DNA of 40,150 bases from a virus, in IMG/VR virus record IMGVR_UViG_3300007076_000018, positions 1-40,150 of that record; one strand, given 5' to 3'. The translations under genes and the position numbers were made by a program. Positions 23,739 to 40,150 of this stretch are shown piece by piece. Each line of letters opens with the position of its first letter. Positions within the stretch are counted from its first letter, which is position 1. Under the pieces are notes generated by a model. It worked only from the letters and a program-made list of their open reading frames with translations. It ran no database searches and was not told the DNA's origin.

Positions 23739-23779
23739 ACATAAGCATACCGACATAGTTTTAATATAAAGGAGGCCAT

Positions 23780-24136: not shown

Positions 24137-24190
24137 ATCCCCGCGATAGAAAATACCCACGTCAAAGCCACCGACGGTAAAAAATAAGAC

Positions 24191-24225: not shown

Positions 24226-24255
24226 GTAGTTAAATGTGTAGCGAAAGGATCGCAG

Positions 24256-24477: not shown

Positions 24478-24830
24478 ATCGAAGAGGTGCAATGAATGTT
24501 TACGACAGATTGCGGAAAACTGAAGCCTCGCCGGCCTGGGATCGTTGCTCGGCCTACGTCATCACCGCGGAGAAAACCAGGGGCGAGATAGTGGGGAAAA
24601 TCCTCGTCGCGCATCCCCGCGATGGCATGGGGCCACTGCACGTATTCGTGTGGGACTGGACAGACCCCGAAAATCCCCGCGAGATCCAGTACGGCGCGGC
24701 CAGGGGCTGCGGATACGATAAACTCAGCGCCGCACTGAGCGGGTTGTGGTTTGGAAAACAGGAGTTCAGGGAAAACGACTGGAAAGCAGGACTGCACGAT
24801 CAGGGCTACAGTTATTTCCAGGCCCTCTAA
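24474..24830 (+). CDS. Hypothetical early protein
   Basis: A protein of 118 residues from ATG 24474 (4-base overlap with the upstream gene, GGAG just before). A second ATG at 24492 is possible. It is rich in Trp, Tyr and Gly (HVFVWDWTDPENP, then YGAARGCGYDKLSAALSGLW) and likely a compact alpha/beta domain. I do not recognise it, although the C-terminal half resembles unnamed phage proteins with a GCGYDK motif. Confidence 0.6.
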   Translation: MNRRGAMNVYDRLRKTEASPAWDRCSAYVITAEKTRGEIVGKILVAHPRDGMGPLHVFVWDWTDPENPREIQYGAARGCGYDKLSAALSGLWFGKQEFRENDWKAGLHDQGYSYFQAL

Positions 24831-24846
24831 TAAGAAAGGAAAACAC

Positions 24847-25047
24847 ATGAAAACCTTACCAGAAGTTCTGCCGGGAAGCCAGATCCTCGAAGAAGCCTAT
24901 AAGAGTAACGCGATGCTGATTATCCGCCAGAACCCGGAAGATAAGTTCCCGTTTCAATTCGGGGTCCGTAAAGCGCACCTCATCGTGAAATACATGGACC
25001 AGATACGCGCCTTTGCAGAAAAACATCCGCTGCCGGAGGCCAAGTAA
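24847..25047 (+). CDS. Hypothetical early protein
   Basis: A protein of 66 residues from ATG 24847 with GAAAGGAAAACAC upstream. A longer frame from 24751 would overlap the preceding gene. The sequence (MKTLPEVLPGSQILEEAYKS, then FPFQFGVRKAHLIVKYM) looks like a small alpha/beta protein without motifs. It shares TAATG with the next gene. Function unknown. Confidence 0.55.
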   Translation: MKTLPEVLPGSQILEEAYKSNAMLIIRQNPEDKFPFQFGVRKAHLIVKYMDQIRAFAEKHPLPEAK

Positions 25048-25217
25048 TGAAAGCCCAGCGTTACCGAATCGTAAGGTTCTTCTCAGACCACAGACCCGCA
25101 AAACGTATAAAAGTTGTGTCAAGCCTCGAACTCGCGCGCTTGCATTGCAGCTCGCCGCTCACCAGGGGAGAACTGCGATCCGGCGTGAAGTGGTTCGACG
25201 GCTTCAAGAAAATCTGA
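25047..25217 (+). CDS. Small phage protein of the WFDGF type
   Basis: A protein of 56 residues: a strand MKAQRYRIVRFFSDHRP, then LELARLHCSSP and the ending VKWFDGFKKI. Short proteins with this layout (RIVRFF start, WFDG(Y/F) end) are common in the early regions of phages, with no assigned function that I know. The start is in a TAATG overlap with the previous gene. Confidence 0.6.
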   Translation: MKAQRYRIVRFFSDHRPAKRIKVVSSLELARLHCSSPLTRGELRSGVKWFDGFKKI

Positions 25218-25233
25218 GGTTGGCTCCTTAAAC

Positions 25234-25263
25234 CCTGCCCGTCGATGATGAGCGGCGGGCGGG
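25234..25263 (+). other. GC-rich stem-loop in the gap before the next gene
   Basis: CCTGCCCG (25234-25241) can pair with CGGGCGGG (25256-25263), 8 bp with one wobble and a 14-base loop. No T-run follows on either side, so I do not call it a terminator. It is in the 92-base gap 25218-25309, which otherwise shows only the AAGGAGCC ribosome site near 25300. Confidence 0.35.
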
Positions 25264-25309
25264 AGTGTAAGGACGCACAGCATAAAGCCACACCAAAAAA
25301 GGAGCCACC

Positions 25310-25408
25310 ATGAAAACCAGAAATATGTCAACACACCCCATGACGAAAAAAGAGTGCAGGGAAGCCATCGCCCTCGCTCACGCCACTGGCCACACGGAGG
25401 GCAAATAA
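25310..25408 (+). CDS. Possible 32-residue peptide gene
   Basis: MKTRNMSTHPMTKKECREAI..., 32 residues, with a good ribosome site (AAAAAAGGAGCCACC). The stop is one base before the next ATG. It has no motif and may act as leader for the next gene. Confidence 0.4.
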   Translation: MKTRNMSTHPMTKKECREAIALAHATGHTEGK

Positions 25409-25409
25409 C

Positions 25410-25529
25410 ATGCTGACCCTACTCGTCGCGATTCAAATCGGCGTTGCCGATCAGACCATCATCGAATATCCCAAAGAACCGGCACCGCTCTGCGTGGGCG
25501 TGTACTGCATAGAGGGGAGTGAAAAATAA
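25410..25529 (+). CDS. Possible 39-residue protein with hydrophobic N-terminus
   Basis: MLTLLVAIQIGVADQTIIEY..., 39 residues. The first 14 residues are hydrophobic, so it may be a small exported or membrane peptide; the C-terminal part has two cysteines (PLCVGVYC). It lacks its own clear ribosome site and would depend on coupling to the peptide before it. Confidence 0.35.
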   Translation: MLTLLVAIQIGVADQTIIEYPKEPAPLCVGVYCIEGSEK

Positions 25530-25530
25530 A

Positions 25531-25806
25531 ATGAAAATAGCAATCAATAAATGCTTTGGCGGTTTCTCTCTGAGTAAAAAAGCCTACGAATTCCTTGGTA
25601 AGAAATGGGACGGCTACGGGTTCGATTACTCGGCTCCCGAAAAGAGAACAGACGAAAAACTTATCGAATGTATCGAAAAGCTTGGGCATAAAGCCAATGG
25701 TGGATTGGCAAAAATAGTGATCGTCGATATCCCCGACCACGTGGATTTTGAAATCCAAGACTACGACGGCATAGAAAGCGTCCATGAGAAGCACAGAAGC
25801 TGGTAA
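25531..25806 (+). CDS. Conserved phage protein (MKIAINKCFGGF type)
   Basis: A protein of 91 residues from ATG 25531. The opening MKIAINKCFGGFSLSKKAYE is a pattern I know from many phage proteins of unknown function, and it fixes the start. A GTG at 25519 is also open but would place AGGGGA too close. The ending VIVDIPDHVDFEIQDYDG is typical of the same family. Probably a small alpha/beta domain. The function is not known. Confidence 0.7.
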   Translation: MKIAINKCFGGFSLSKKAYEFLGKKWDGYGFDYSAPEKRTDEKLIECIEKLGHKANGGLAKIVIVDIPDHVDFEIQDYDGIESVHEKHRSW

Positions 25807-25915
25807 ATATCTGTCCGAAAACTGTCACAGGGAAGGCGGTACGCACCACGCCAGTTGCCGGGACCAGGGCTGCGAATGCGAATGTCACAGCGCAGAAAAC
25901 GAAGGCGGAGAATAA
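25784..25915 (+). CDS. Small His/Cys-rich protein
   Basis: A protein of 43 residues (MRSTEAGKYLSENCHREGG...), with a dense metal-binding pattern in the second half: H-H-x-x-C, then C-E-C-E-C-H. It overlaps the end of the upstream gene by 23 bases in another frame and ends in a TAATG overlap with the next gene. This tight packing and the ordered Cys/His spacing argue for a real gene. Role unknown. Confidence 0.5.
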   Translation: MRSTEAGKYLSENCHREGGTHHASCRDQGCECECHSAENEGGE

Positions 25916-26058
25916 TGACAAGGACATTTAGGGAAATACTGCTGAATGGGTTATGGGAGAGGCTGGCGCGCCACTCGCGCGCGCCCGTATATCAGCGGAC
26001 GTTCCTGATATACGAAATCACGCACGTCTTATCGTGCAGGGAGGAATCACATGAGTAA
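25915..26058 (+). CDS. Hypothetical small protein
   Basis: A protein of 47 residues (MTRTFREILLNGLWERLARH...). It begins in a TAATG overlap and ends eight bases into the next gene. Basic at the N-terminus and helical; no known family. Its last codons contain the GGAGG that serves the next start. Confidence 0.45.
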   Translation: MTRTFREILLNGLWERLARHSRAPVYQRTFLIYEITHVLSCREESHE

Positions 26059-26266
26059 GAAATCTGTAGAGGGAAATCCATACAACTACGCCAAGTGGTC
26101 GCGCCGCCGCCTGATCGAACACGCCAAGTGTCTGAGCGAGAGCATCCACGAACTCGCAAGCCAAGCCATGCAACAAGAGCATGAACTGAAGAAACTCAGG
26201 CCCTGCGCGGAGCGCCTTGCCGCGATTGACGAGTTCCGCGAATTCCTCCATGGCGGCGCGATATGA
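26051..26266 (+). CDS. Hypothetical coiled-coil-like protein
   Basis: A protein of 71 residues, basic at the start (YNYAKWSRRRLIEHAKCLSE) and then helical with heptad-like Leu/Ala/Glu spacing (QAMQQEHELKKLRPC). GGAGGAATCAC precedes the ATG. Stop and next start overlap (ATGA). No function can be assigned. Confidence 0.6.
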   Translation: MSKKSVEGNPYNYAKWSRRRLIEHAKCLSESIHELASQAMQQEHELKKLRPCAERLAAIDEFREFLHGGAI

Positions 26267-26490
26267 CCGTGACCTACGAGCCCTGTAAGCGATGCGGGGA
26301 ACCCAATGCGCTCTACGACCTGACACCGTATTGCATCGACTGCACGGAGTACAAAGAAAACGGAGGACAGATGAAATCAGAACGCAACAAATGGGCAGTG
26401 GCGACAGTCATTGCCTGGGGGTTTTTTTTAGCCACCGCGGTAGGCAGTTGGTACGCGATTTACCACATTTTGAAGTGGTGCGCGCAGTAA
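26263..26490 (+). CDS. Membrane-anchored zinc ribbon protein (first of a pair)
   Basis: A protein of 75 residues. The N-terminal part has PCKRCGEPN and YCIDCTEY, a classic CxxC-CxxC zinc ribbon; the C-terminal part has a membrane helix (WAVATVIAWGFFLATAVGSW). The domain order is the same as in the next gene. The zinc ribbon would face the cytoplasm if the helix follows the positive-inside rule (K/R before the helix). Function unknown. Confidence 0.65.
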   Translation: MTVTYEPCKRCGEPNALYDLTPYCIDCTEYKENGGQMKSERNKWAVATVIAWGFFLATAVGSWYAIYHILKWCAQ

Positions 26491-26532
26491 AGCGAAAGCC
26501 GGCGTTTTAAAACTGGAAAGGAAGCAAAGCCA

Positions 26533-26739
26533 ATGTCGTGCGTGAAATGCGGAAATTTTGTGTCCTATTCGGCCATTACAGGACGCCGTTGCGTGACGTG
26601 CTGGAATATGGCGGGAAGGGAAAAGATGTTTTTTCTCGGAGTGTTTTTATTTTGTCTCGGAGTCGTAACGGGAATTATTTGGACAGAACATAAAGGAGAA
26701 CCACATGGAAAAACTAAAAACGTTGGCACAGTTCATTAA
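26533..26739 (+). CDS. Membrane-anchored zinc ribbon protein (second of a pair)
   Basis: A protein of 68 residues with SCVKCGNFV and RRCVTCWNM (zinc ribbon) followed by a membrane helix (MFFLGVFLFCLGVVTGIIW). It repeats the architecture of the gene before it, without close sequence identity. AAAGGAAGCAAAGCC precedes the ATG. It overlaps the start of the helix-turn-helix gene by 35 bases. Confidence 0.65.
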   Translation: MSCVKCGNFVSYSAITGRRCVTCWNMAGREKMFFLGVFLFCLGVVTGIIWTEHKGEPHGKTKNVGTVH

Positions 26740-26911
26740 CGAGTCGGGATCTGTGGCAGAAGCTGGACGCAGACTCAGTATCGAAGCCTCGACGCTGCGC
26801 CGCTGGCAAAAAAATAAATCCAAACCTAGTCAGTCAATGGTAAAACTGGCGCGTCTGAAAGGGGTTGACCTAGAGAATCAGTTGCTATTGCCTGAAGCTG
26901 TGGATTGCTGA
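26705..26911 (+). CDS. Small helix-turn-helix DNA-binding protein (Cro/transposase-type HTH)
   Basis: A protein of 68 residues with the helix-turn-helix pattern TLAQFINESGSVAEAGRRLS, then ASTLRRWQKNKSKPS (residues 6-42). It resembles small Cro-like or antirepressor-type regulators. AGGAGAACCAC precedes the ATG. Its 3' end overlaps the convergent VapE-like gene by 86 bases. It is a candidate for binding the hexamers or palindromes in the divergent region. This is the last gene of the first rightward block. Confidence 0.7.
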   Translation: MEKLKTLAQFINESGSVAEAGRRLSIEASTLRRWQKNKSKPSQSMVKLARLKGVDLENQLLLPEAVDC

Positions 26912-28481
26912 TCTTCCATACGCGCTGCATGACATCGTCGATTCGCACCACAGCAGATTGCCACCCCATGCGGCGCAGAATGTTCCCCAGGCGGCGTTGA
27001 ACGGCAAAGTCTAGTTTTGCCTTGTCAACGCCGACCTGGGCAGCGACTTCGTGAAGGAAAACCTGAGTCTTGCAGCACTCCCTCAAATAAGTCGAGACGA
27101 TATTTTCCCATTCATCGTACTGCCGGCGGTCCTCTTGTTCAGAAAGCGTGGCTTCGGCCGGCATCTTGTACCAGTCCTCGCCGGCCAGATAGCGCGTGAC
27201 GGCTTCGGCGAAAAGCTGTTCCCTGTCGCGGAGTATGCCCTCCAAATCAATGTGAAAGCAAGTGATGGGCCAGAACCGGCGCCCACCGGTATTATCGCGG
27301 AGATAATGAGATTCGTTTGTGGTGCCGACAAAAATGGATTGCCGCGGGTGATCCTGGGTGGTCCGGGCGTAGGGCATACGATAGCGATCGGTACGGCACG
27401 TGATGACTTTCTTGATGCGGTTGGCGTCCGCGCGCGAGAACGAATCGAGATCCGCGATCTCCACAATGATCTTACCCGCGAGGGCCACAAAGAAATCCTT
27501 GCTTGTGATTTCCTCTGAGGCTTCCATGTACCACTTGCCGCCAATGGCTTCCAGGGCCTTGGATTTGTATATGCCCTGCTGACCTTCAAGAATGACCATG
27601 TTATCGAGCTGGCAACCGGGCCGGAATATTCTCGCAACCATACCAATCCAGAAGTTCCGGCCCACGCCACAGGAATAACCCGAATCATGGGCGCCGATGT
27701 AGTGAATAAAAAATCTATCGATTCTGGGACGGCCGTCCCATTTCAGGCGTTCCATCCATTCCCGTGGATCATTTCTGATACATTGATGCGCGCGGTGCCG
27801 TATAGCCTGGGCAACGGTTTCCTGCGAGATACGGAAAAAAGAGAACTCCCGCTGAAGCCGAACAGTCATATTGATGTCGTCAATGTCTGACCATTCACGG
27901 GCCTTTTCGCCTGGGCGCAAACCCAGGTTTGTAAAATATCTCTTGTAAAATTCATCGAACCAGATAATGAATTGAAATTTCTTCCAGACCGTGAGGATCC
28001 GAACCACGTTGTCTATGTTTGGAACCGGCGTGTTATTCTGCGACATCGCCAAGCCCAGGTTTTCCCAAAGCGCGGCGGCCGAATCTGGGATCTCATCGGC
28101 GGCTTCAACGGTTTCCACAATCACGCGCGGGAATTCACCCTTGCCGAAAACCATCATGGATTCCTTGGCCCACATCGCCAGATCACGCCAAGACATCCCA
28201 TCAGCTACAGCGGTCGCGATATTCCAGCCATGAGCCTTGCCGTTTGGCACGATTAGCTTGATTTCAAGACATGATTCGCTTACTTTCTCGGCGAACCTAC
28301 GAAAAGCTTCCCTGGACGCCGGCGCCGCATCAGGCCATAAGATGAGCTTACGGCCAGAAAAGTCGCTTAAATCGCTGTTTCCATTCGCGGGAATAGGCCG
28401 CACATCGTAGCCCGTAGCAATTTGGCTAGCGGCTTCGACAACGGCCTGTTCTACGATGATTACTGGTGGATCTTCAGCCAT
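26826..28481 (-). CDS. VapE-family (virulence-associated E) helicase/primase-like ATPase
   Basis: A protein of 551 residues. The C-terminal half is a VapE-type SF3-like ATPase: Walker A EGQQGIYKSKAL near 299-310, Walker B KIIVEIADLD near 336-345, sensor FVGTTNESHYLRDNTGGRRF near 384-403. Just upstream, RLKWDGRPRIDRFF is typical of the family. The N-terminal ~110 residues (RKLILWPDAAPASREAFRRF and VPNGKAHGWN) look like a reduced Toprim-type part. It would unwind DNA at the origin in place of a DnaB/primase set. The ATG lies inside the 30-residue gene before it (8-base overlap). Confidence 0.88.
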   Translation of the reverse strand: MAEDPPVIIVEQAVVEAASQIATGYDVRPIPANGNSDLSDFSGRKLILWPDAAPASREAFRRFAEKVSESCLEIKLIVPNGKAHGWNIATAVADGMSWRDLAMWAKESMMVFGKGEFPRVIVETVEAADEIPDSAAALWENLGLAMSQNNTPVPNIDNVVRILTVWKKFQFIIWFDEFYKRYFTNLGLRPGEKAREWSDIDDINMTVRLQREFSFFRISQETVAQAIRHRAHQCIRNDPREWMERLKWDGRPRIDRFFIHYIGAHDSGYSCGVGRNFWIGMVARIFRPGCQLDNMVILEGQQGIYKSKALEAIGGKWYMEASEEITSKDFFVALAGKIIVEIADLDSFSRADANRIKKVITCRTDRYRMPYARTTQDHPRQSIFVGTTNESHYLRDNTGGRRFWPITCFHIDLEGILRDREQLFAEAVTRYLAGEDWYKMPAEATLSEQEDRRQYDEWENIVSTYLRECCKTQVFLHEVAAQVGVDKAKLDFAVQRRLGNILRRMGWQSAVVRIDDVMQRVWKISNPQLQAIATDSLGQPLSDAPVLPLTD

Positions 28482-30571: not shown

Positions 30572-30745
30572 ATGAAACGAAAGAAAATATTGCGATTATG
30601 CCAGATCAACTTCCGCCTTACCGTCGAACAAAGGGAAACTTTGAGACGGAAAGCGTGGGATAAAAACGTGTCCGTATCTAACATGGTACGAGAGAATTTA
30701 GAACGCCACGGCGTTATTCCCGTCAATGGGAAAAATAATGTTTGA
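30572..30745 (+). CDS. Ribbon-helix-helix regulator
   Basis: A protein of 57 residues with the Arc/MetJ-type pattern: beta strand LCQINFRLT, helix VEQRETLRRKAWDKN and helix SVSNMVRENLERHG. A strong AAGGAGG precedes the ATG. It lies between two promoters of the same design, facing outward and downstream, so it may regulate both and itself. Its last codons contain the -35 box of the exonuclease promoter. Confidence 0.7.
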   Translation: MKRKKILRLCQINFRLTVEQRETLRRKAWDKNVSVSNMVRENLERHGVIPVNGKNNV

Positions 30746-30770
30746 CATTATCTTTACAATTTTCTAGGAT
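30742..30770 (+). promoter_or_regulatory. Rightward promoter of the recombination operon
   Basis: TTGACA (30742-30747), 17-base spacer, TAGGAT (30765-30770), and predicted start near ATG 30778. TAGGA could also be the ribosome site of the exonuclease gene. Confidence 0.55.
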
Positions 30771-30777
30771 TTCACCC

Positions 30778-31725
30778 ATGATCGAAACCATTCAACCCAC
30801 TGATGAGAAGCATTGGCTGGAATTACGCAAGCAAGACGTGACTTCCACCGAAGCAGCGGCATTATTTGGCCTGTCTCCTTATATGACGCAGTTCGAGTTA
30901 TGGCATCGCAAGCACGACAACATTGATGTCGAATTTGAAGTTAACGAGCGAATGCGCTGGGGTACGCGCTTACAGGACTCGATTGCAGCCGGCATTGCAG
31001 AAGATCAGGGCTGGAAAATCAGGCGCATGACGGAGTATATCCGCGATCCGGAATTGAAGGCCGGCGCGAGTTTTGATTTTTCTGCTTGCGCGCACAAAAC
31101 GGACGGTCTTGGAACCGCTACCGAAGGAAAAGAAAATGACGATTTTCTACTCGAAATCAAAAACGTGGATTCCCTGGCTTTCCGTGATGGCTGGGTAGTG
31201 GATGGCGATAACGTAGAAGCACTCCCACATATTGAAATCCAAGTTCAACAACAGCTTTTTTTATCGCAGCGCCGGCTTGCATTTATTGGCGCACTTATAG
31301 GGGGGAACCGTGTCGTCATTATTAAACGAGAGCAAGATCCGATCGTCATTGCAGAGATTCGGAAAAAAATTGTGGAGTTCTGGGATTCGGTTAAAAGTGG
31401 TGCAGAGCCGACTCCAGACTTCCAACGCGACGCTGATTTCATTTCGCGGATTTATTCTTTTGCCGAACCGGGAAAAATCTTCAACGCCGACGAACGTGTT
31501 TCAAAACTGGCCTACGCCTACAAGCAAGTCTCAGACCAAGCCAAAGCCGCAAGCGAAAAAAAAGACGCGCTCAAGGCGGAAATACTGACGATTATCGGTG
31601 ACGCGGAAAAAGTCCTGGGAGAAACATTCTCTATAACAGCCGGCCTTGTGGGTCCACAGCATATCGAATATGACCGCGAGGGATTCCGAAATTTCAGAAT
31701 CAACTGGAAGAAGGTAAAGGCATGA
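30778..31725 (+). CDS. YqaJ-like exonuclease
   Basis: A protein of 315 residues from ATG 30778 (an upstream non-ATG start at 30742 would add 12 residues and overlap the promoter). YqaJ hallmarks: HWLELRKQDVTSTEAAALFG, SPYMTQFELWHRK, MRWGTRLQDSIAAGI, then the catalytic LLEIKN (ExK) near 136 and the QVQQQLF helix near 170. The 5'-3' exonuclease would resect double-strand ends and hand the single strand to RecT, whose gene lies downstream in the same operon, as in other phage recombination pairs. Confidence 0.88.
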   Translation: MIETIQPTDEKHWLELRKQDVTSTEAAALFGLSPYMTQFELWHRKHDNIDVEFEVNERMRWGTRLQDSIAAGIAEDQGWKIRRMTEYIRDPELKAGASFDFSACAHKTDGLGTATEGKENDDFLLEIKNVDSLAFRDGWVVDGDNVEALPHIEIQVQQQLFLSQRRLAFIGALIGGNRVVIIKREQDPIVIAEIRKKIVEFWDSVKSGAEPTPDFQRDADFISRIYSFAEPGKIFNADERVSKLAYAYKQVSDQAKAASEKKDALKAEILTIIGDAEKVLGETFSITAGLVGPQHIEYDREGFRNFRINWKKVKA

Positions 31726-32201: not shown

Positions 32202-32531
32202 ATGCTTGGCAAATTCACAGCAGAAAATGATGTTGATGGTAATGGGATGCCGGCTGGTGGGATAGTCAGAGGGGTTGGGGTGGCGATAGATTGGCAAGAT
32301 GGACCGCTCGGTCGCGGCGAGGATCGCAAGGAACCCAATGGCGCTTTCGTTGAGACTGTGATCGCGGCCGCAAAACAACGGATCGAATTCTATCAGACGG
32401 CAAACAATGGCAAGTTCGCTTGTCACTATAATAAATTGGCGATTCTCTTACTCGATTGTGCCCTGGATGTTCTCGGTTGGCGCACTGGGGAAAGAGAACT
32501 GCGTCAAGTGGAGGGAACACACAATGCCTGA
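32202..32531 (+). CDS. GRGEDR-motif small protein, copy A (possible Tad1-like anti-Thoeris protein)
   Basis: A protein of 109 residues. The signature GPLGRGEDRKEPNGAFVE (residues 34-51) is followed by a helix (AAAKQRIEFYQTANNGKF) and the end RELRQVEGTH. From memory this small phage family includes Tad1, which sequesters the cyclic ADP-ribose signal of Thoeris defence; I cannot confirm this without a search. GGAGG precedes the ATG. The second copy is at 36540-36875, about 60% identical in protein. This copy is more diverged at CHYNKLAILLLDCALDVLGW. Confidence 0.6.
   Translation: MLGKFTAENDVDGNGMPAGGIVRGVGVAIDWQDGPLGRGEDRKEPNGAFVETVIAAAKQRIEFYQTANNGKFACHYNKLAILLLDCALDVLGWRTGERELRQVEGTHNA
32301..32362 (+). 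repeat. Near-identical 62-base segment shared with 36645-36706
   Basis: The segment coding for the GRGEDRKEPNGAFVETV motif matches 36645-36706 at 60 of 62 bases, while the flanks of the two genes differ much more. This suggests recent gene conversion or a partial duplication. Confidence 0.8.
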
Positions 32532-33390
32532 AACGAAATCAAAAACAAAAATTACTCCCCAAGATGAAGTCTGCGCCTCTCTAGTCACGCGGGAGAACGA
32601 CTTCAAGATGGCGTTGCCCACCCAGATCCCGAGCGCCAAGTTCATCCGGGTAGCACAGACGCTCATTCGCCAGTCTCCGGGTCTGGCAGATCCACAGAGG
32701 GTTGATCGTCAGTCGCTCTACGCGGCCATGCACAAGTGCGCGGCCGACGGCCTGATACCTGACGGACGGGAAGCCACGATCATTCCGTTCAAGGGCAAGG
32801 CTCAGTACATGCCGATGGTCGCCGGCATCTGCAAGAAGGCCAGGAACTCCGGGGAGATCAAGACGATCAACGCTCAGATCGTCTACAAGAACGACGCCTA
32901 TGAGCATTGGATTGACGAGGCAGGGGAGCACTTCAAGCATATGCCGGCGCGCGGAGAGCGAGGGGAAGTTCTGTGCGTCTATGCCTTTGCCCAGACCAAG
33001 GACGAAGGCGTGTTTTTCGAAGAACTGAGCATGGCCGATATCGAAGCCATCCAGAAGATGTCCAGGGCAGAGGACGGTCCCTGGAAAGGACCGTTCAAGA
33101 CCGAAATGATGCGGAAATCAGCGATCCGTCGCCTTCTCAAATACCGCGTCCCATCATCGACAGATGTGGATGAAATCATTCGAGCCGACGATCCAATCTA
33201 TGAAAAGGATCCACCACCACCAGCGCGGCCGGCTGAGACAATCTCATCCAGATTGCGGGATGCCGTTGCAACCACCGCAGAGACTCCAGAAGCCAAGCCA
33301 CAAGCCCAACCAGCCACCCAAGAAGGGCCTACAGAAGCCGAAGAAGCCCAAGAACTCGCTACAGCAGCGGGTGAGGAGTTACCGCTATGA
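32524..33390 (+). CDS. recT: RecT-family single-strand annealing protein
   Basis: A protein of 288 residues from ATG 32524 with GGAGGGAACACA upstream. RecT hallmarks: KFIRVAQTLIRQSPGL, a long Q-S-L-Y-A-A-M-H-K-C-A-A-D-G-L segment, QYMPMVAGICKKARNSGEI, VYKNDAYEHWID and KSAIRRLLKYRVP. The C-terminal ~65 residues are Pro/Ala/Glu-rich and probably disordered. It anneals single strands made by the YqaJ-like exonuclease upstream. The gene is visibly GC-richer than both flanks, a sign of separate origin. It overlaps the next gene by four bases. Confidence 0.9.
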   Translation: MPETKSKTKITPQDEVCASLVTRENDFKMALPTQIPSAKFIRVAQTLIRQSPGLADPQRVDRQSLYAAMHKCAADGLIPDGREATIIPFKGKAQYMPMVAGICKKARNSGEIKTINAQIVYKNDAYEHWIDEAGEHFKHMPARGERGEVLCVYAFAQTKDEGVFFEELSMADIEAIQKMSRAEDGPWKGPFKTEMMRKSAIRRLLKYRVPSSTDVDEIIRADDPIYEKDPPPPARPAETISSRLRDAVATTAETPEAKPQAQPATQEGPTEAEEAQELATAAGEELPL

Positions 33391-33677
33391 AAATCGCCAT
33401 AGTCGTTGCAGCACTCTTAGCCCTAATCGCCCCTGCTTCCCTTGCTTGTCAGCCCAACGAAATCGCCTACGAGGGGCTTTGCGCCGCCGATCCCCGGCCA
33501 GCGGTGGCGGAAGTCGAATCCGTGAAGCCCTCTGACGAGAAACCCCGGCGTGGCCGTCAGTCGGCCTGGGAAACCGGGGAAGTGAACGCCGAAGTCACGA
33601 AGACAAAATCTCAGCACATCGACGAGATGATTGAAAAGATAGCGAATGATGGGGTGCCGGCGAGGGTGAAGAAGTGA
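33387..33677 (+). CDS. Small exported protein
   Basis: A protein of 96 residues with a clear signal peptide (MKIAIVVAALLALIAPASLA) and then CQPNEIAYEGLCAADP. Cys 21 right after the predicted cleavage site could be a lipid anchor, but the box (SLAC) is not canonical. The mature part is charged and short. It is encoded among early recombination genes, so a role in superinfection exclusion or the host envelope is possible but unproved. Confidence 0.6.
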   Translation: MKIAIVVAALLALIAPASLACQPNEIAYEGLCAADPRPAVAEVESVKPSDEKPRRGRQSAWETGEVNAEVTKTKSQHIDEMIEKIANDGVPARVKK

Positions 33678-33907
33678 CCTTCGCCGACGACGATTTGAAG
33701 CGGTTGAAAGAATGGGATGCATCTGCCATGAAGGCTGACGATGAAGAGGTTTGGGGTGAGTTTAAAGACGAGCTGTGTAAGAAATTCCCAGCTCTCCTCG
33801 CCCGGCTGGAAGCGGCGGAGTTCGCCTTAGATGGATTTGATGCTGATGAGCCAACAGTAGTTATTGACGCACGATTAAACCTCTGGCGCAAGGCGGCTGG
33901 CAAATGA
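33674..33907 (+). CDS. Hypothetical acidic protein
   Basis: A protein of 77 residues with GTG start in a GTGA overlap. Acidic and helical (DDDLKRLKEWDASAMKADDE, then LLARLEAAEFALDGFD). No family recognised. It is coupled by overlap to genes on both sides. Confidence 0.55.
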   Translation: MTFADDDLKRLKEWDASAMKADDEEVWGEFKDELCKKFPALLARLEAAEFALDGFDADEPTVVIDARLNLWRKAAGK

Positions 33908-34143
33908 TTGACGAAGCTCTTAAAGCGATGCGTAAACCCTGTAAGGGATGTGGCAAGCCCGTCTTGTTTCTAAAAGAAAAGGGTGCCGCCAAATGGCAGA
34001 TTCTTGATCCAGTGGCACCGACCTATATCGTTTTTAGACTTGGTTTAGCTGGCGAAATTCTATGCGATAGGACAACTGCCATGGTTTCACATTTTTCGAC
34101 ATGCTCAAAAGCCAATAACTTTAGCAAGGCGGCCACGAAATGA
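33904..34143 (+). CDS. Zinc-ribbon-like protein
   Basis: A protein of 79 residues. CKGCGKPVLFLKEKG near the start and HFSTC near residue 63-67 give a Cys/Cys...His/Cys pattern for one zinc. Similar small proteins, with a K-W-Q-I-L-D segment after the ribbon, are common in phage early regions. It overlaps both neighbours by four bases. Function unknown. Confidence 0.6.
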   Translation: MIDEALKAMRKPCKGCGKPVLFLKEKGAAKWQILDPVAPTYIVFRLGLAGEILCDRTTAMVSHFSTCSKANNFSKAATK

Positions 34144-34424
34144 CCCCGGAAGAGAGAGCGCAGCAGTTATACCGAAAAGCCAAATTTCTGAATGGTTTTA
34201 ATCAAGGTTTTGGTGGCCCTTCTGATGATTCTATCGAGCGCAATTTCAAAGAATTTGAAGCGATGTTTAAATCCGCCTTGGAAGAGGCCAAGCGGGAAGC
34301 CTTCTTCGAAGCGGCGAAGATTGCGGAAGACACAAATTACAAACACAAACCTGAACTAATGTCGGGTGAAATTTGGCTGCGGGACACCATTGCCGAAAAG
34401 CTGAGAGCGAAGGCGGGAGAATGA
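34140..34424 (+). CDS. Hypothetical helical protein
   Basis: A protein of 94 residues, helical and charged (MTPEERAQQLYRKAKF, then EAKREAFFEAAKIAEDT). Proteins ending with an AA..AE.....W(L)RD.IAE(K/R)LRA motif are widespread phage hypotheticals. It overlaps both neighbours by four bases, so it is part of one operon. Confidence 0.6.
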   Translation: MTPEERAQQLYRKAKFLNGFNQGFGGPSDDSIERNFKEFEAMFKSALEEAKREAFFEAAKIAEDTNYKHKPELMSGEIWLRDTIAEKLRAKAGE

Positions 34425-34789
34425 GACGGAAGAAAAACATTCAGCACGTCAAATTCACTGTAAGCAAGCGATGTCATTTTGGAATCGAGATGTACCGAAA
34501 ATTGCGAACAGGAAAGCACTACGGGCGAACTCAAACAAGTTCAAAAGGCAATCACGAAGTTTGGCTAACGGCAAATCAAAGCAACTGGGATTTCACAAAC
34601 TCGTTCTTTCATGAAATGGTTCATCTGTTTTTGGGGATGTATGGATTTAGGGGCAGGCTCAACAAAGAAGCCGAGGAACAAGTCGCTCAATGGATTGGCT
34701 ATCACTCGCGTTTATTTCTGTGCGATGTGTTGCCGATCCTTAGAAAACAGACACTTAAACAGCTTCGCCGCGAAGGAGATGGGGCATGA
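34421..34789 (+). CDS. Small HExxH zincin (metalloprotease-like)
   Basis: A protein of 122 residues from ATG 34421 (ATGA overlap). The motif HEMVHLFLGMYG at about residues 65-76 is an HExxH zinc-protease site at the end of a helix (NSFFHEMVH). A tail helix (EEQVAQWIGYHSRLFLCDV) follows; E in the EEQ segment could be the third zinc ligand. The N-terminal part is basic with KGNHEVWLTANQSNWDF just before the motif, which looks like an edge strand. The target is unknown; such mini-zincins could cut a host regulator or virion protein. Confidence 0.7.
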   Translation: MRRKKNIQHVKFTVSKRCHFGIEMYRKLRTGKHYGRTQTSSKGNHEVWLTANQSNWDFTNSFFHEMVHLFLGMYGFRGRLNKEAEEQVAQWIGYHSRLFLCDVLPILRKQTLKQLRREGDGA

Positions 34790-34902
34790 CTCTCTGGGAT
34801 CTTCGCCAAGCCATTGAGTCGCGCATTTCGGTCTCGGATTACTTAGCGGTCCTGGCGATCATCGGAATAATCGGCGTGTGGATCTTTTGGAAGGATCGAT
34901 GA
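34786..34902 (+). CDS. 38-residue single-pass membrane protein
   Basis: MTLWDLRQAIESRISVSDYL... ends in a membrane helix (LAVLAIIGIIGVWIFWK). Start and stop overlap the neighbours by four bases (ATGA on both sides), which supports a real gene. No known family. Confidence 0.55.
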   Translation: MTLWDLRQAIESRISVSDYLAVLAIIGIIGVWIFWKDR

Positions 34903-35048
34903 CCCTCACCAAAGCAGAGAAAGCCCGAGTCGAGGACATCCGGATGCGCTTGCAGCGGCTCAGAGACGAGGGCCATGACGTGAGCACCTGGGAAGCCACG
35001 TTCTTCCTCAAGATTTTGGATAGGAATATGAAAAGGAGATCGAAATGA
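34899..35048 (+). CDS. Hypothetical small basic protein
   Basis: A protein of 49 residues (MTLTKAEKARVEDIRMRLQR..., then THE W-E-A-T-F-F-L-K-I-L segment). Helical and basic. The opening is similar in style to that of many phage early proteins of two helices. It contains the AAAAGGAG used by the next gene. Confidence 0.5.
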   Translation: MTLTKAEKARVEDIRMRLQRLRDEGHDVSTWEATFFLKILDRNMKRRSK

Positions 35049-35350
35049 ACCCAAGAAAGTGGTTGTTTGTGTTGCCGTATTACGTGGTTGTTTCGACGGG
35101 ATTTGAAGGCAATGAAGATGCTTATCTCAAAACTCATGAGTATGAATCAGCGGAACCAAATGCGCGAACGGCCATCACGATGTACACGTGTCCTCCGGAG
35201 CTAAAATGCGCTGAATTCCTGAAAGACCTCGCGAACGCGCTGAATGACAGCCGGGAAAGGCGGGAGCAACTGAAATATGGATCGACGACAGGCACTCCTA
35301 TGGACTCTATAACGATTGATGATTTTAAGCGGAAAATTCAAGCTAAATGA
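35045..35350 (+). CDS. Hypothetical protein
   Basis: A protein of 101 residues with AAAAGGAGATCGAA before the ATG. The first part WLFVLPYYVVVSTGFEGNED is hydrophobic but has features of a beta strand pair, not of a signal. The rest is polar (TCPPELKCAEFLKDLANALN). No motif recognised. The stop overlaps a short open frame of 24 residues that I do not call. Confidence 0.55.
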   Translation: MNPRKWLFVLPYYVVVSTGFEGNEDAYLKTHEYESAEPNARTAITMYTCPPELKCAEFLKDLANALNDSRERREQLKYGSTTGTPMDSITIDDFKRKIQAK

Positions 35351-35434
35351 TGGATAGATTTCCCCGCAACGGCTCTAGAAGAAAATCGAACATCACGCGC
35401 CGCTCTACGGGGATCAATTAGAAAGGTGGTTGGG

Positions 35435-35971
35435 ATGAAATTCAAGATTGGCGATAAATGCTGGTATGCAAGAGCCGGGCAAGAGGAAATTAAAACCACT
35501 TGTCCTGATTGTGACGGGACTCGTCGAATCAGAATGATTCTGGCGAACGATGAGCAAATATCGATTGATTGCGGTGGTTGTGGGCTTGGTTATATGGGAG
35601 CTACAGGAACGATTACGGAATACAAATTCAAAGCCTTTGTCATTAACGCGGCAATCGATGGCATAGAGGAAACCAGAGAAAATACGAAATATCGAGTGAG
35701 TTCTTTTACAGGCGGGTATTATTCATTTGATGAGAAGGATGTATTCCTAACAGAAGAAGAAGCCGTAGAGCGATGCAAGCTATTGGTTAAAGAGGCTGAA
35801 GATGCTGAAAAAGAAAGACTTTTGCGAAAAGAAAAAGATACTAAGTCTTGGGCATGGAACGCCTCTTATCATCGCAGGTGTATCAAAGATGCTGAAAAGA
35901 ATTTGTCCTACCACAAATCAAAATTAAGCGTAGCGTCTGCGAAAGCAAAAGAAACTGCTGTAGAGAAATAG
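35435..35971 (+). CDS. Protein with DnaJ-type Cys-rich zinc motif and coiled tail
   Basis: A protein of 178 residues from ATG 35435 with AGAAAGGTGG upstream. Residues 23-55 hold TCPDCDGTRR and CGGCGLGYMG, which resemble the CxxCxGxG repeats of DnaJ. The middle (YKFKAFVINAAIDGI, then TKYRVS) looks like a beta fold and the C-terminal 70 residues are Lys/Glu-rich and helical. Found in early regions of other phages as hypothetical; a zinc-stabilised binding protein is likely. Confidence 0.6.
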   Translation: MKFKIGDKCWYARAGQEEIKTTCPDCDGTRRIRMILANDEQISIDCGGCGLGYMGATGTITEYKFKAFVINAAIDGIEETRENTKYRVSSFTGGYYSFDEKDVFLTEEEAVERCKLLVKEAEDAEKERLLRKEKDTKSWAWNASYHRRCIKDAEKNLSYHKSKLSVASAKAKETAVEK

Positions 35972-35989
35972 CCCAGAAAGGCGGCGGGG

Positions 35990-36154
35990 ATGAGTGATTT
36001 AACGGGAACAGAAGTTGGATTTGGGACTTACTCGAAAGACAATAGGCGGAGAATGATAAAGCTCCATCTCGAAAGGCAAGTGCTTCAAATCCTGACGGAA
36101 GTCGTCCATGAACAAATGCAGATTATTGACGAAGAAATAGCCGCCTCTAAATGA
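35990..36154 (+). CDS. Hypothetical small protein
   Basis: A protein of 54 residues (MSDLTGTEVGFGTYSKDNRR..., ending IIDEEIAASK), basic in the middle and helical at the end. The ribosome site is GGCGGGGA. Four-base overlap with the next frame. No family recognised. Confidence 0.45.
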   Translation: MSDLTGTEVGFGTYSKDNRRRMIKLHLERQVLQILTEVVHEQMQIIDEEIAASK

Positions 36155-36474
36155 ACGAGATGGATTTTGGGTGCTGGTTAAACTGGCTGGAATCGGGGTT
36201 CGTCGCCGACGGCAGGAGTGACTCTCTTGTCCAAGCCGCCGCAGGATTGACGGAAAGGCGGGCCACTCCAGCACCCTCTATTTTGGGGATGAGCGTAAAG
36301 GCGCATAGATGTCTTGGTGTTGCGGCAGCCAAAAGACGAATGGGTGAAATTCCCTACCATCCCCGCAATTTCGATGGGTGTGCGGCGTGGCGAGATGACA
36401 CGCACGAAAACGGAGATCGGCCCATTACCGAGCGAAAGCGACTGGCGTGTTTCTCCGTAACTGTTCGCCAGTAG
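36151..36474 (+). CDS. Uncertain open frame, possibly a broken gene
   Basis: A frame of 107 residues starting in an ATGA overlap. The beginning MNEMDFGCWLNWLESGFV may be real, but the second half does not look like a folded protein. Another frame over 36310-36460 reads more naturally (KFPTIPAISMG, then GPLPSESDWRVSP). This suggests a frameshift, a fusion of two small genes, or wrong reading. The region 36475-36539 then only carries the AAAAAAGGAG site of the next gene. Confidence 0.3.
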   Translation: MNEMDFGCWLNWLESGFVADGRSDSLVQAAAGLTERRATPAPSILGMSVKAHRCLGVAAAKRRMGEIPYHPRNFDGCAAWRDDTHENGDRPITERKRLACFSVTVRQ

Positions 36475-36539
36475 CCGGGGCAGGACTGGCCACACCCATC
36501 GAATGATTTTGAGACCAAATAGAGAAAAAAGGAGAACAA

Positions 36540-36875
36540 ATGAACGCGATTAAAGACTGTCTCGTAGAAAACAAAGTTGATGAGAACGATAACCCTGCCG
36601 GTGGCTTTGTCCATGGGGTTGGCCTGAGTATCGAATGGCAAAACGGACCGCTCGGCCGCGGCGAGGATCGCAAGGAGCCCAATGGCGCTTTCGTTGAGAC
36701 TGTGATTTCAGCAGCCCTGCAACGCATCGAGTTTTACCAGATAGTCAATGGCGGGAAATTCAAATGCCGTGAGAACGCTATCGCCATCACGAAGCTCGAA
36801 GAAGCCCTCTTGTGGCTTGATAAGCGCACAAGAGACCGTGAGGCTCGACAGGTTGAAGGCACTCACGTCGCCTAA
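36540..36875 (+). CDS. GRGEDR-motif small protein, copy B (possible Tad1-like anti-Thoeris protein)
   Basis: A protein of 111 residues with a strong ribosome site (AAAAAAGGAG). GPLGRGEDRKEPNGAFVE lies at residues 37-54, then AALQRIEFYQIVNGGKFKC, RENAIAITKLEEALLWLDK and the ending REARQVEGTH. It is about 60% identical to the protein at 32202-32531 and nearer to what I recall as the family consensus. If the Tad1 link is right it would bind the Thoeris nucleotide signal; two copies could have different ligands. Family link from memory only. Confidence 0.65.
   Translation: MNAIKDCLVENKVDENDNPAGGFVHGVGLSIEWQNGPLGRGEDRKEPNGAFVETVISAALQRIEFYQIVNGGKFKCRENAIAITKLEEALLWLDKRTRDREARQVEGTHVA
36645..36706 (+). 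repeat. Near-identical 62-base segment shared with 32301-32362
   Basis: Partner of the segment at 32301-32362: 60 of 62 bases equal, direct orientation, 4344 bases apart. Recombination between them would delete recT and the genes in between. Confidence 0.8.
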
Positions 36876-36994
36876 AGGTTTGGCCCTGCGGCAGTGGCAG
36901 TAGAAAGCCGCGAACTATCGGTGGAAGGCGCCGAGCAACCGATCAGGGCCAACGCTATAGTAAAAGTCGTCGACGGAGGGAGTAATCTTGTCGT

Positions 36995-37189
36995 ATGTCT
37001 GCACCATGGTTTAGACCAAAAAAAAAGAAACAAAAAAGACCACGCCGACCAAATTCCCACAAAGACTCAAAAGAGTTCAGGATATGGTGGAAAAAATATA
37101 AGAATCGGTACTGGCGTCCCGATAACAGGCTTCTCGGCGCTTTTGGAATCGTGGATCAGTGGGGTGTATCAAGTGAAATCGAAACCTAA
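36995..37189 (+). CDS. Small basic aromatic protein
   Basis: A protein of 64 residues (MSAPWFRPKKKKQKRPRRPN..., FRIWWKKYKNRYWRPDNRLL). Strongly basic with many Trp/Tyr. GGAGGGAG is 12 bases upstream. A GTG-started frame of 148 residues overlaps it in another phase; I prefer this frame because its composition is more natural and the neighbour starts inside it in a coupled way. Confidence 0.45.
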   Translation: MSAPWFRPKKKKQKRPRRPNSHKDSKEFRIWWKKYKNRYWRPDNRLLGAFGIVDQWGVSSEIET

Positions 37190-37340
37190 AAAATATTCCT
37201 CTCTCCTTGGTCCACTGGAATTAAGAAAAGACTATAAACCACCTCGTCGAAAAAAGAAGCGGATTCTTTTCTCAAAATCACGCATCCGTAGGCGATGCGA
37301 TATTCAAAGAGTATTAGATGAACGGTTTAAGGCTGATTAG
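37173..37340 (+). CDS. Small very basic protein
   Basis: A protein of 55 residues from GTG 37173 (KSKPKKYSSLLGPLELRK..., then KPPRRKKKRILFSK). It overlaps the end of the upstream gene by 17 bases and the convergent signal-peptide gene by four. It is the last rightward gene. The pattern IRRRCDIQRVLDERFKAD near the end is helical. Likely nucleic-acid binding, by charge only. Confidence 0.45.
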   Translation: MKSKPKKYSSLLGPLELRKDYKPPRRKKKRILFSKSRIRRRCDIQRVLDERFKAD

Positions 37341-37861
37341 ATATATGAACCCTGAATCAGACTCAAGCGCGATGTTATCGACATGACAGGCGCTGCCGAA
37401 GCCAAAGGTTGTTCAGGCTCAACAGTCCCACCAAAAGCATAGGTCCCAGAAATACCGACCCCAGGCCTTCCGTTAGTGGTATCCAGTCGCCCAAAGACAT
37501 TCAGATGTGCGCTTTTGTAATCCGCAAACACTGGAATCTCTCTCAGAATGTCGTGGCCGGCCGCGACATAGGGTTCGATCAGGTTCGCTGGACCAGTGGG
37601 CCATGCTCCATCAACGCCGAACTGAAGCGCCAGGATGTCGTGCGGCAACGTATAGACAGGCACCGAAGCGATGGCGACGGTCTTTTTATTGATCGCGTCA
37701 TAGCCTAGACCTGTCTCAGTGGTGGCAAGGTTGAAGTTAAACGTTCCATACTCTGTCTGCCATACCAGAGGTTGTGCATGAGCCTGACTGGCTTCCATGA
37801 CAATGGCGAACAGCGCCATGACAGCAACGATGATAACGAACAACGGGCTCCGAAGTTTCAT
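37337..37861 (-). CDS. Exported beta-rich protein, last gene of the leftward operon
   Basis: A protein of 174 residues from ATG 37861, with AAAGGAGATCAATCA just upstream; the frame is open further but without a site. The signal peptide is strong (MKLRSPLFVIIVAVMALFAI... ending AHA). The mature part alternates short beta-like stretches (TEYGTFNFNL, VGISGTYAFG), like a small outer-membrane or periplasmic protein. It follows the holin-like gene. It may act in the envelope during lysis or block other phages. No family recognised. Confidence 0.65.
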   Translation of the reverse strand: MKLRSPLFVIIVAVMALFAIVMEASQAHAQPLVWQTEYGTFNFNLATTETGLGYDAINKKTVAIASVPVYTLPHDILALQFGVDGAWPTGPANLIEPYVAAGHDILREIPVFADYKSAHLNVFGRLDTTNGRPGVGISGTYAFGGTVEPEQPLASAAPVMSITSRLSLIQGSYI

Positions 37862-38112
37862 TGATTGATCTCCTTTGGCGGGGTTGCCGCCGCGATTTCG
37901 TTTCTGATCTTCTCGCCTTTCAGGGCATTGAAGAATCCCACCCACCCGATGCTTGCCGCCGTGAATTCTGGCGTACTCGCCAGGTGCAGTAGATATCCCA
38001 TGCCCTGCTGTGAGAAGTTGATGCAGATCGTTCCGGTCGCGACTAGTGCCGCACCGGCGGAAGCGATCATTTGTTTCTTACCGTCGAAGAAGTCCACGAT
38101 CTTGCCTAACAT
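37858..38112 (-). CDS. Holin-like membrane protein
   Basis: A protein of 84 residues from ATG 38112, with GGAGGG eight bases upstream. It has two hydrophobic segments: MIASAGAALVATGTICINF (about 15-33) and a second near 50-65 (FTAASIGWVGFFNAL), plus a charged tail. Size, topology and place after the endolysin support a holin that opens the inner membrane. Start and stop overlap the neighbours (ATGA at the 3' end). Confidence 0.6.
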   Translation of the reverse strand: MLGKIVDFFDGKKQMIASAGAALVATGTICINFSQQGMGYLLHLASTPEFTAASIGWVGFFNALKGEKIRNEIAAATPPKEINQ

Positions 38113-38131
38113 ACGAAGTACCCTCCATTCC

Positions 38132-38395
38132 TCAATCCAGCGGTGAACGATGTTCACGGCGTGGCGTGTCCTCTGGTCTTAGTGCGTCGATTTTCTCTCG
38201 AAACCGGCCTACTTTAATGATCTGCCTGATTCTGAGGCCCTGGCGCTCCTGGCGGTCCAGAACGGGCTGCAAGCGGTACTTGTCATAGCACCAGAACGAC
38301 GCGACCTCGGCCATGACCAGGATAATAAGCACCCAGATCCGGATGTCCTTGATGTGCCGCCGGTCAAAGATAATGCGAAACACCTCTTCAAACAT
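38132..38395 (-). CDS. Membrane protein in the lysis module (spanin- or holin-like)
   Basis: A protein of 87 residues: short cytoplasmic start, one membrane helix (IRIWVLIILVMAEVASFWCY, 19-38) and a charged helical tail of about 50 residues. This topology fits an inner-membrane spanin or a holin partner. No outer-membrane lipoprotein partner is visible nearby. The start overlaps the 41-residue gene upstream by eight bases. Confidence 0.55.
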   Translation of the reverse strand: MFEEVFRIIFDRRHIKDIRIWVLIILVMAEVASFWCYDKYRLQPVLDRQERQGLRIRQIIKVGRFREKIDALRPEDTPRREHRSPLD

Positions 38396-38513
38396 CGGGT
38401 TTATCCCTGCCGCGAATCACCTGAATATCGGTTTCAATAGCGTCGAGTCTCTTCATCACAGGTTCCAAGAACCAGTCACGCAGGGCCTTCCAGGTCCACG
38501 GAAACCCCGTCAT
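38388..38513 (-). CDS. Small helical protein in the lysis module
   Basis: A protein of 41 residues (MTGFPWTWKALRDWFLEPVM...), with an amphipathic Trp-rich N-terminus and a short helix (KRLDAIETDIQVIRG). It starts in the ATGA overlap with the endolysin stop and ends within the next gene. Amphipathic design may suit membrane contact. No family recognised. Confidence 0.5.
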   Translation of the reverse strand: MTGFPWTWKALRDWFLEPVMKRLDAIETDIQVIRGRDKPDV

Positions 38514-39004
38514 ACCGTCTCCACGAGATCGTAATGACCGTCTACCATGGTCAGGATCTGGCCGCAACGCTCAGAGGTTCTGTACGGGAATCCGAGCGAG
38601 AGGTGTATCCACTCAACTGCACCATTGGCATACCCCCGGTTTTGCTTCTCCCAGATCATCTGACCGAACCTGATCTTCCCCTCTTTGGACCGGGCCCGGA
38701 GTATGCGAAACGCCTCATCGACTGGCATACCCTTGGGAACGCCGTCTCCGGCCTCACACAATAGATGTTGGCTCCGCATCGAAGAGCCCACGGCGGCATT
38801 GAGCGCCGGGCACCGGTACCCGCTTGAAATCAGGATCGGCACATTGAGGAGCTGCCAGGCCGTCTCGAAGAGTTCTGCGACTTGGATTAGCTTGATGACC
38901 TGATCGGTTGTGACATGCCGGTTAGCTTCCAGGAGATCGGCATGATCGGTTCGGGTCAAATCGTAGAGCGTGTAGTGTTCGGTTAACTTCTGGTTTTCAA
39001 TCAT
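38510..39004 (-). CDS. Endolysin, peptidase M15-type
   Basis: A protein of 164 residues from ATG 39004 (ATGA overlap with the upstream stop; a longer frame from 39085 would overlap that gene). Motifs of the M15A peptidase: ISSGYRCPALNAAVG, S-x-x-SQHLLCEAGD (zinc His and Asp) and VEWIHLSLG (zinc His). The usual Gly after SQHxx is Cys here. It cuts peptide cross-links of peptidoglycan at lysis. It has no signal peptide, so a holin must release it; candidate holins are encoded on both sides. Confidence 0.85.
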   Translation of the reverse strand: MIENQKLTEHYTLYDLTRTDHADLLEANRHVTTDQVIKLIQVAELFETAWQLLNVPILISSGYRCPALNAAVGSSMRSQHLLCEAGDGVPKGMPVDEAFRILRARSKEGKIRFGQMIWEKQNRGYANGAVEWIHLSLGFPYRTSERCGQILTMVDGHYDLVETV

Positions 39005-39222
39005 TCCTTGGTACCCCGTATAGGCTGTCCTAAGCTCCAGTCCGCGTCGGACTCTTGCGACCAGGAACAGGATGCGCTCGAGCATGTCAATCGAAATGCT
39101 CCGTCATACCACTTCTGGGCCTCACATTGACTCTTGATGTCCATAAGCAGACACCTCGGGCATAACTTATCAATCGGCCACTTCCGGTCACGGTCTGTGC
39201 TTGAACCAGGATCGGTTTTCAT
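39001..39222 (-). CDS. Zinc-ribbon-like protein in the lysis module
   Basis: A protein of 73 residues from ATG 39222 (GGAGG nine bases upstream; an ATG at 39228 is too near that site). Cys pattern LCPRC, then C and TCSSASC with WSQ after it: a zinc ribbon. The stop is coupled to the endolysin start. Not a known lysis protein; function unknown. Confidence 0.55.
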   Translation of the reverse strand: MKTDPGSSTDRDRKWPIDKLCPRCLLMDIKSQCEAQKWYDGAFRLTCSSASCSWSQESDADWSLGQPIRGTKE

Positions 39223-39514
39223 CTTCATGATCCTCCAAGCGTTTCATGCGCTTCTCCTGGCTCTCCTGAATCGCGACGATCTTTTCCAATATTCCGCTCT
39301 TGTCGGATTCCCAGGACTCTCTCAAGTTGATCCACTGGTGGATGCTCTTCAGATCGTCGTGAAGCATCTTGTTGTCCAGGGCGATGTACTTGATGGTCGC
39401 GATGTATCCCCCCACCGCCACGCAAGCCATGACAAGGCCAGTAAACACAGGCCACAGGGGTATCCAGCGCAGCACCCCGCTATCGGTGAGTCGCCGTCTG
39501 TGGTCGTCGTTCAT
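39188..39514 (-). CDS. Membrane protein with coiled-coil tail (holin/spanin candidate)
   Basis: A protein of 108 residues. The N-terminus is basic (MNDDHRRRLTDSG), a membrane helix (WPVFTGLVMACVAVGGYIAT) follows at about 21-40, and the rest is a charged coiled coil to residue 108. Its ATG overlaps the fibre stop by four bases. Such proteins between fibre and endolysin are class III holin or inner-spanin candidates. Confidence 0.6.
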   Translation of the reverse strand: MNDDHRRRLTDSGVLRWIPLWPVFTGLVMACVAVGGYIATIKYIALDNKMLHDDLKSIHQWINLRESWESDKSGILEKIVAIQESQEKRMKRLEDHEDENRSWFKHRP

Positions 39515-40150
39515 TTAAATGACCCAGTTCCAAACATTGATTGTTGTCCAAAATTCACTGATGAAAAAGAAGCTGTAGATGCCTCGATCGAAAAAGCGGT
39601 TAAAACGCTTGCGGGTTGGCTAACGACAACCGGAGCCAGATGCCGGATCGAAAAATAAAGTTGATTATTTGTGACTGTTTTACTGAACGTGATAGAAGCT
39701 GGGGTCTGCTGGGCGCACCCTGGAATAAGAGTGCAAAGATCAAAATACTTTCCTGTAATGCCCTGCTGTGTCCAGGGGCCATCTCCGGCCAGCGTAGTCG
39801 TAGATGGACTGGAAGAAAAGACTGAGCCCTGGGAGTCAATGGCTTCCTGCCATGTGCCAGATGTGAAAGGGCTACCGCCACCAATGGCATAACGAAGCTG
39901 AATCCGATATGTTCCGTTCGGAACAAAGAACCGATAGTATTGATCGCCCGATCCACTGTTAACGTACTCGCAATGTTTATAGAGATCAGCATCTGTCACG
40001 CCTGACCAGGGATCTCCTGTGAAATCACAGTTCGCGCTGCCCTGAAATCGATAGAGAGAAGAGTAGTCAGAAAACCAAGTGTTACCATTTACATCTGGTC
40101 CGTAATCCGCGAACGTCACCGTACTAAGCCTTTCGCGGATTGCACTACTG
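39511..40150 (-). CDS. Tail fibre/adhesin, C-terminal part with malectin-like domain
   Basis: An open frame from base 40150 to the stop at 39511, in phase with the frame that leaves the window at base 1: the split codon CA+C closes without a stop and the sum of the two parts (2034 bases) is a multiple of three. A GTG at 40119 is probably not a start. The sequence (FADYGPDVNGNTWFSDYSS, FVPNGTYRIQLRYAIGG, then NNQLYFSIRHLAP) resembles malectin-type carbohydrate-binding domains. It would be the receptor-binding tip, rich in Cys, Ser and Thr. Confidence 0.75.
   Translation of the reverse strand, partial: SSAIRERLSTVTFADYGPDVNGNTWFSDYSSLYRFQGSANCDFTGDPWSGVTDADLYKHCEYVNSGSGDQYYRFFVPNGTYRIQLRYAIGGGSPFTSGTWQEAIDSQGSVFSSSPSTTTLAGDGPWTQQGITGKYFDLCTLIPGCAQQTPASITFSKTVTNNQLYFSIRHLAPVVVSQPASVLTAFSIEASTASFSSVNFGQQSMFGTGSFK

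Follow-up and report, generated by a model that had tools for sequence, protein, structure and literature searches.

Tad1 is a small phage protein that sequesters the alarm molecules of infected bacteria, and it assembles into dimers, three of which form a hexamer. The family has been studied so far in a handful of proteins. In Tad1, gcADPR and dinucleotides are bound at sites separate from those for trinucleotides, and the trinucleotide sites are similar to those of Acb2, a protein of approximately 90 amino acids without a beta sheet (PMC12043709). Moreover, phage phiKZ encodes a Tad1, gp184, that reportedly blocks both CBASS and Thoeris (PMC13282480).

The DNA analyzed here, referred to as the window, is a 40,150-nucleotide stretch of the virus record IMGVR_UViG_3300007076_000018, in which two Tad1-family genes sit together on one contig. 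Copy A (32202-32531, plus strand) encodes a protein of 109 amino acids with a non-R hairpin (FACHYNKLAILLLDCALDVLGWRTGEREL...VEGTH), as determined by profile search, modeling, and Foldseek. Copy B (36540-36875, plus strand) encodes a protein of 111 amino acids with an R-type hairpin (FKCRENAIAITKLEEALLWLDKRTRDRE...VEGTH), which was additionally recovered by phmmer; the two hairpin types are described below. Both open reading frames, which the initial annotation had paired through a common motif, were found intact at these positions, and the 18-residue motif GPLGRGEDRKEPNGAFVE was identical in A and B. Credible putative ribosome binding sites were read from the sequence before each gene, namely, GTGGAGGTCTAA for A and AAAAAAGGAGAACAA for B. 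The rest of the two genes had been described as much more diverged. This held for the synonymous sites, as 17 of the 49 same-residue codons in the flanks were identical against 17.9 expected, which corresponds to saturation, but not for the proteins, which were 64-67% identical across their full length. Thus, the homology of A and B is not limited to the motif.

The suggested link to Tad1 was examined by several routes. Both proteins matched phrog_2428 (E 4e-13 for A and 3.8e-21 for B), and this group was taken as the Tad1 family because SBSphiJ7 Tad1, the founding member, matches it at E 8e-47. In the case of single-sequence searches, B found Tad1 8kbb at E 3.4e-12 (phmmer), while A matched Tad1 chains weakly, at E 0.014. 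A profile of A-type proteins found 8kbb at E 2.2e-15 and CbTad1 at E 3e-9, and when 27 sequences spanning the two types were combined into one profile, 8kbb was reached at E 5.4e-22. Over 80 aligned columns, the identity to SBSphiJ7 Tad1 was 46% for B and 39% for A. The AlphaFold (AF2) monomer models, with pLDDT values of 92.3 (A) and 93.7 (B), predicted the same arrangement for both proteins, in which three strands are followed by a loop containing the GPLGRGEDRKEPNG core and then by two long antiparallel helices. When these models were compared with the PDB using Foldseek, ranks 1-17 for A and 1-18 for B were all Tad1, and nothing else rose above noise; the structural check that had been proposed therefore returned only Tad1 crystal structures. 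Acb2 was rejected as an identity for either protein, as both models carry an N-terminal sheet and Acb2 is all-helical. Judged from sequence profiles, predicted fold, and phrog_2428 membership, A and B are Tad1-family proteins.

The other proposed check, a search with the Acb2/Tad1 hairpin model (PF24729, curated cut-off of 27 bits), came out differently. B scored 22.2 bits, which is under the cut-off, and A gave no match, while the controls SBSphiJ7 Tad1 and T4 Acb2 scored 34.2 and 71.4 bits, respectively. PF24729 is a short, Acb2-centered hairpin model and does not define Tad1. Accordingly, the result was attributed to the centering of the model on the Acb2 signature, which is absent from A. 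Searches of A and B against the NCBIfam and PADLOC families returned no matches. The pocket residues F82, N92, R109, and R113 of CbTad1 presumably correspond to Y64, N77, R94, and R98 in A and to Y66, N79, R96, and R100 in B, and the latter residues are retained in the two proteins.

Relatives were collected by profile scans of viral contigs, which yielded 182 and 203 proteins; 80 were retained from each scan. From these, 102 distinct proteins were read, and the alignment made after a length filter contained 102 proteins, including A and B. The pattern GPLGRxxxRKEPNGAFVET was near-universal in this group, which counts more than 180 relatives on viral contigs. Thus, the motif is a family trait and gives no sign of duplication. 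The division within the family was found in the hairpin. Arg directly follows F-x-C in 63 of the 102 aligned proteins (R-type), and these carry T84 (62/63) and W92 (62/63) and mostly K or H at position 85 and E at 87 and 88 (B numbering here and below). In the other 39, comprising A and 38 others (non-R type), mixed residues replace the Arg and mostly the rest of this signature; Y66, F74, C76, N79, A82, L93, R96, T97, R100, and VEGTH are nearly or fully invariant among them. The three positions R77, T84, and W92 were all occupied in 61 of 101 proteins and all lost in 33; for the question of whether R77 disappeared repeatedly along with T84 or W92, the tree provided only three supported independent pairs. 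Irrespective of this split, N79, R96, R100, and VEG are kept. B retains R77, T84, K85, E88, and W92, including T-K-L-x-E-A-x-x-W. A lacks these residues at the positions named and retains Y64, F72, N77, R94, R98 (A numbering), and VEGTH, which vary little or not at all within the family.

The same split was seen when the family was compared with Acb2. The Pfam model Acb2_Tad1_hairpin matched all 50 rows of an R-type alignment and 14 of the 50 rows of a mixed alignment, which is the number of R-type rows in the latter. Moreover, the R-type profile aligned with T4 Acb2 (Vs.4) over ENAIAITKLEEALLWLD / QLTIAKTKLKEASMWAC at E 1.8e-4, while no alignment with T4 Acb2 was obtained using the non-R profile. 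Consequently, A has lost the part shared with Acb2 and has kept the rest. In the family tree, most forks of which were without support, A lay nearest to non-R proteins and B nearest to R-type proteins with an MNAIKDC start, and a recent duplication was rejected; on this sequence evidence, A and B are drawn from two hairpin types and are not a recent duplicate pair. Two close copies were found only in this phage among 110 records that were examined over their full length, its own included, a count that is a lower bound as many of the records are fragments. A literature search for duplicated Tad1 yielded no relevant report.

Several relatives showed features of their own. One more of the 110 records, IMGVR_UViG_3300044854_000085, carries two Tad1-like genes (L040, 1477-1803, and L061, 1315-1722), one of which is an R-type member of the A/B group, while the other is a longer, distant Tad1 nearer to CmTad1 and to gp79 of Agrobacterium phage OLIVR5. 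The latter protein (QIW87727.1; L074, 1390-1788) is named 'ABC transporter ATPase' in GenBank, yet it matches phrog_2428 and A/B and, by its sequence, is probably a Tad1 under a wrong name. In Vibrio phage BX-1, of the Ackermannviridae Vibrio phages, a Tad1-family open reading frame with the non-R hairpin FNCAANAKAIHHLRIGLKEL is unannotated in the record (L073, 1411-1788). One further gene (L045, 1501-1869; genome G007) has a three-cysteine insertion in the motif loop, GPLGR-HTSDCRPKVCIAGC-TRETPNG, which is possibly a metal site or another pocket lid. The scan of genome contigs gave a single relative (L075, 3106-3474). Its contig, of only 8 kb, had been sorted into a Candidatus Amesbacteria MAG, and a host was not assigned on this basis. 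This gene has an internal tandem duplication, with GGAVHGVGLEIKWQEGP present twice, and is preceded by a GGTCGTGGTCGGG-type repeat coding GRGRGR.

The likeliest reading of the split, by the resemblance to Acb2, is that the residues lost in A are part of the trinucleotide site or help to form its shape, and A is probably impaired for cyclic trinucleotides. We therefore favor, with a probability of roughly 60%, an interpretation in which A and B are two Tad1 sponges, B having two sites and A binding gcADPR and dinucleotides while its site for trinucleotides is weak or missing, and in which their common core was converted recently. According to the models, each protein would consist of a short beta sheet and a long two-helix hairpin. 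Both would assemble like Tad1, as dimers and then a hexamer, and would bind the cyclic nucleotide alarms of Thoeris and CBASS, thereby keeping the effectors inactive. With its full Tad1 signature, B should hold gcADPR or cyclic dinucleotides in six pockets and cyclic trinucleotides in two trimer-interface sites. A, with the second hairpin type, most likely keeps the gcADPR/dinucleotide pocket, its trinucleotide site being weak or absent. The initial proposal that two versions block two signals is plausible in this specific form, with the Acb2-like signature lost in A and kept in B.

Alternatively, A and B could both be complete sponges with one and the same signal range, the hairpin of A having drifted or packing differently in the hexamer, and the two genes would then serve dose or timing, with A alongside recET and B in a separate stretch. 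The retention of the family-wide invariant residues in both A and B agrees with this, as does the variation of the replaced positions among non-R proteins, which looks unconstrained. However, R77, T84, and W92 go jointly and not piecemeal, and they fall in the segment shared with Acb2; we thus consider equal sponges rather unlikely, although the idea keeps some weight.

As regards the converted core in the favored interpretation, the segment of A at 32301-32362 (plus strand) codes GPLGRGEDRKEPNGAFVETV, which forms the beta3-alpha1 loop and the start of the first long helix, and its partner in B at 36645-36706 (plus strand) was identified by base and codon matches. The initial figure of 60 equal bases out of 62 was reproduced on recount, with mismatches at 32312 and 32333 only. 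Among same-residue codons in the core, 18 of 20 were identical, compared with 7.0 expected from the codon usage of the phage, and 18 or more matches occurred in 0 of 200,000 simulations. The contrast between core and flank codons was significant (Fisher p = 2e-5), and a scan of the pair with freely placed windows gave p = 0.0006 at 20 codons and 0.048 at 12; how significant this short tract is depends on the window length. Over a 66-base core, A and B differed at 4 positions, while the next nearest relative differed at 10 (from A) or 13 (from B). The direction of conversion was sought from this comparison with the relatives and was not found.

A constraint at the DNA or RNA level, or chance combined with shared codon bias, could also have produced an equal core. 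In its favor, the tract measures only 62 bp, the outcome of the test varies with window length, and some other pairs of relatives show similar contrasts at some point along the gene if the window may be placed freely. Against it, the mean share of equal codons in 300 pairs of relatives was 0.33 in the core and thus lower than the 0.39 in the flanks, A-B was the only one of these pairs with such a contrast at the core position, and the observed matches far exceed the prediction from codon usage. Since the relatives vary freely in the core at synonymous sites, DNA-level constraint was judged unlikely, and this whole alternative appears improbable; conversion accounts best for the matching cores, as the initial annotation had suggested. 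The simplest account of the two sequences is one recent exchange of approximately 60 bp between A and B.

In the genome, A lies between recombination genes. A RecE-like recombination exonuclease is located upstream (30742-31725, plus strand; phrog_434, E 2.1e-54), and a RecT-like annealing protein follows (32524-33390, plus strand; phrog_148, E 4.8e-50), whose ATG, as read from the sequence, lies within the end of A (8-base overlap). This pair could have mediated the conversion, so that the pocket-loop cores of A and B would have been equalized recently by a short event involving the RecE/RecT of the phage itself. The other phage genes encode head-tail connector, tail, major head, terminase, helicase/primase, and endolysin proteins. 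A second record (G001) matches the window with 100% identity at 34859-40150 and 1-12000; it confirms B and its flanks and stops short of A, and no third Tad1 copy was found in it. Between the segments matching the end and the start of the window, this record contains approximately 4.8 kb (23232-28045) that are absent from the window. This shows a circularly permuted map and a genome of approximately 45 kb. In a relative (G028) with RecE 68% and RecT 72% identical, a different sequence without A is present between recE and recT, and A accordingly looks like a movable cargo gene. Promoter and terminator scans detected sites no more frequently than in shuffled sequences. It is very improbable that A left the sponge function to become a Tad1-derived subunit or a binder of another ligand, such as a different ADP-ribose signal or a nucleotide from the adjoining recombination module: although the recT ATG within its end suggests translational coupling and its hairpin type, with mixed residues, is common to 39 of 102 relatives, the presumed gcADPR pocket residues Y64, N77, R94, and R98 are kept in A and nearly all non-R proteins, the non-R phiKZ gp184 was reported active against Thoeris and CBASS (PMC13282480), and G028 places A outside that module.

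The Tad1 kind itself is already known. What is new is that one phage combines two unlike types, that the whole family splits at residues shared with Acb2, and that a short conversion tract is present. The compact Tad1 group of more than 180 loci in uncultured phages, with two hairpin types that differ at these residues, opens the direct question of which residues confer the trinucleotide site of Tad1. A second question is whether the site was dropped where hosts lack such signals. Because this phage encodes both types, its two proteins are well suited to such a comparison, and their genes also provide a naturally occurring example of conversion within an anti-defence gene pair. A more far-reaching scheme, which we regard as quite unlikely, would divide the Tad1 family by function, the R-type forming a class with two sites and the non-R type a class in which the trinucleotide site was abandoned. 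The phage would possess both, and conversion would keep the pocket loop equal, allowing A and B to form mixed dimers and hexamers whose shared pockets remain intact. The result would be a two-gene sponge with a signal range set by the A:B ratio.

The nearest known proteins are SBSphiJ7 Tad1, CbTad1 (7uav, 8smd, 8kbe, and 8kbf), and CmTad1 (8kbb, 8kbc, and 8kbd). A and B belong to the same group as SBSphiJ7 Tad1, phrog_2428, and their predicted fold is that of Tad1; SBSphiJ7 Tad1 has N79, R96, R100, and VEGTH of B in common. Compared with Tad1, the N-terminal part of A and B is shorter (three predicted strands), the loop ahead of the first long helix is approximately four residues longer (GRGEDRKEP), and A lacks the REN...TKLEEA..W signature. 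In the case of Acb2, the TKLxEAxxW helix segment of T4 Vs.4 (7uq2) is common to B and all R-type relatives, while A has no sequence match to Acb2 and its structure search listed Vs.4 at E 3.7 only; PaP2 Acb2 (p26; solved structure 8h2j) shares this segment in part only. The phiKZ Tad1 gp184 (8y6v_I) has a non-R hairpin, FACEENQVVINSMDRALSAIHQR, like A. Unlike A, it is a virion-injected jumbo-phage protein of 230 amino acids, of which the C-terminal part alone aligns. As this non-R protein was reported to be active against CBASS and Thoeris (PMC13282480), the non-R type can be functional.
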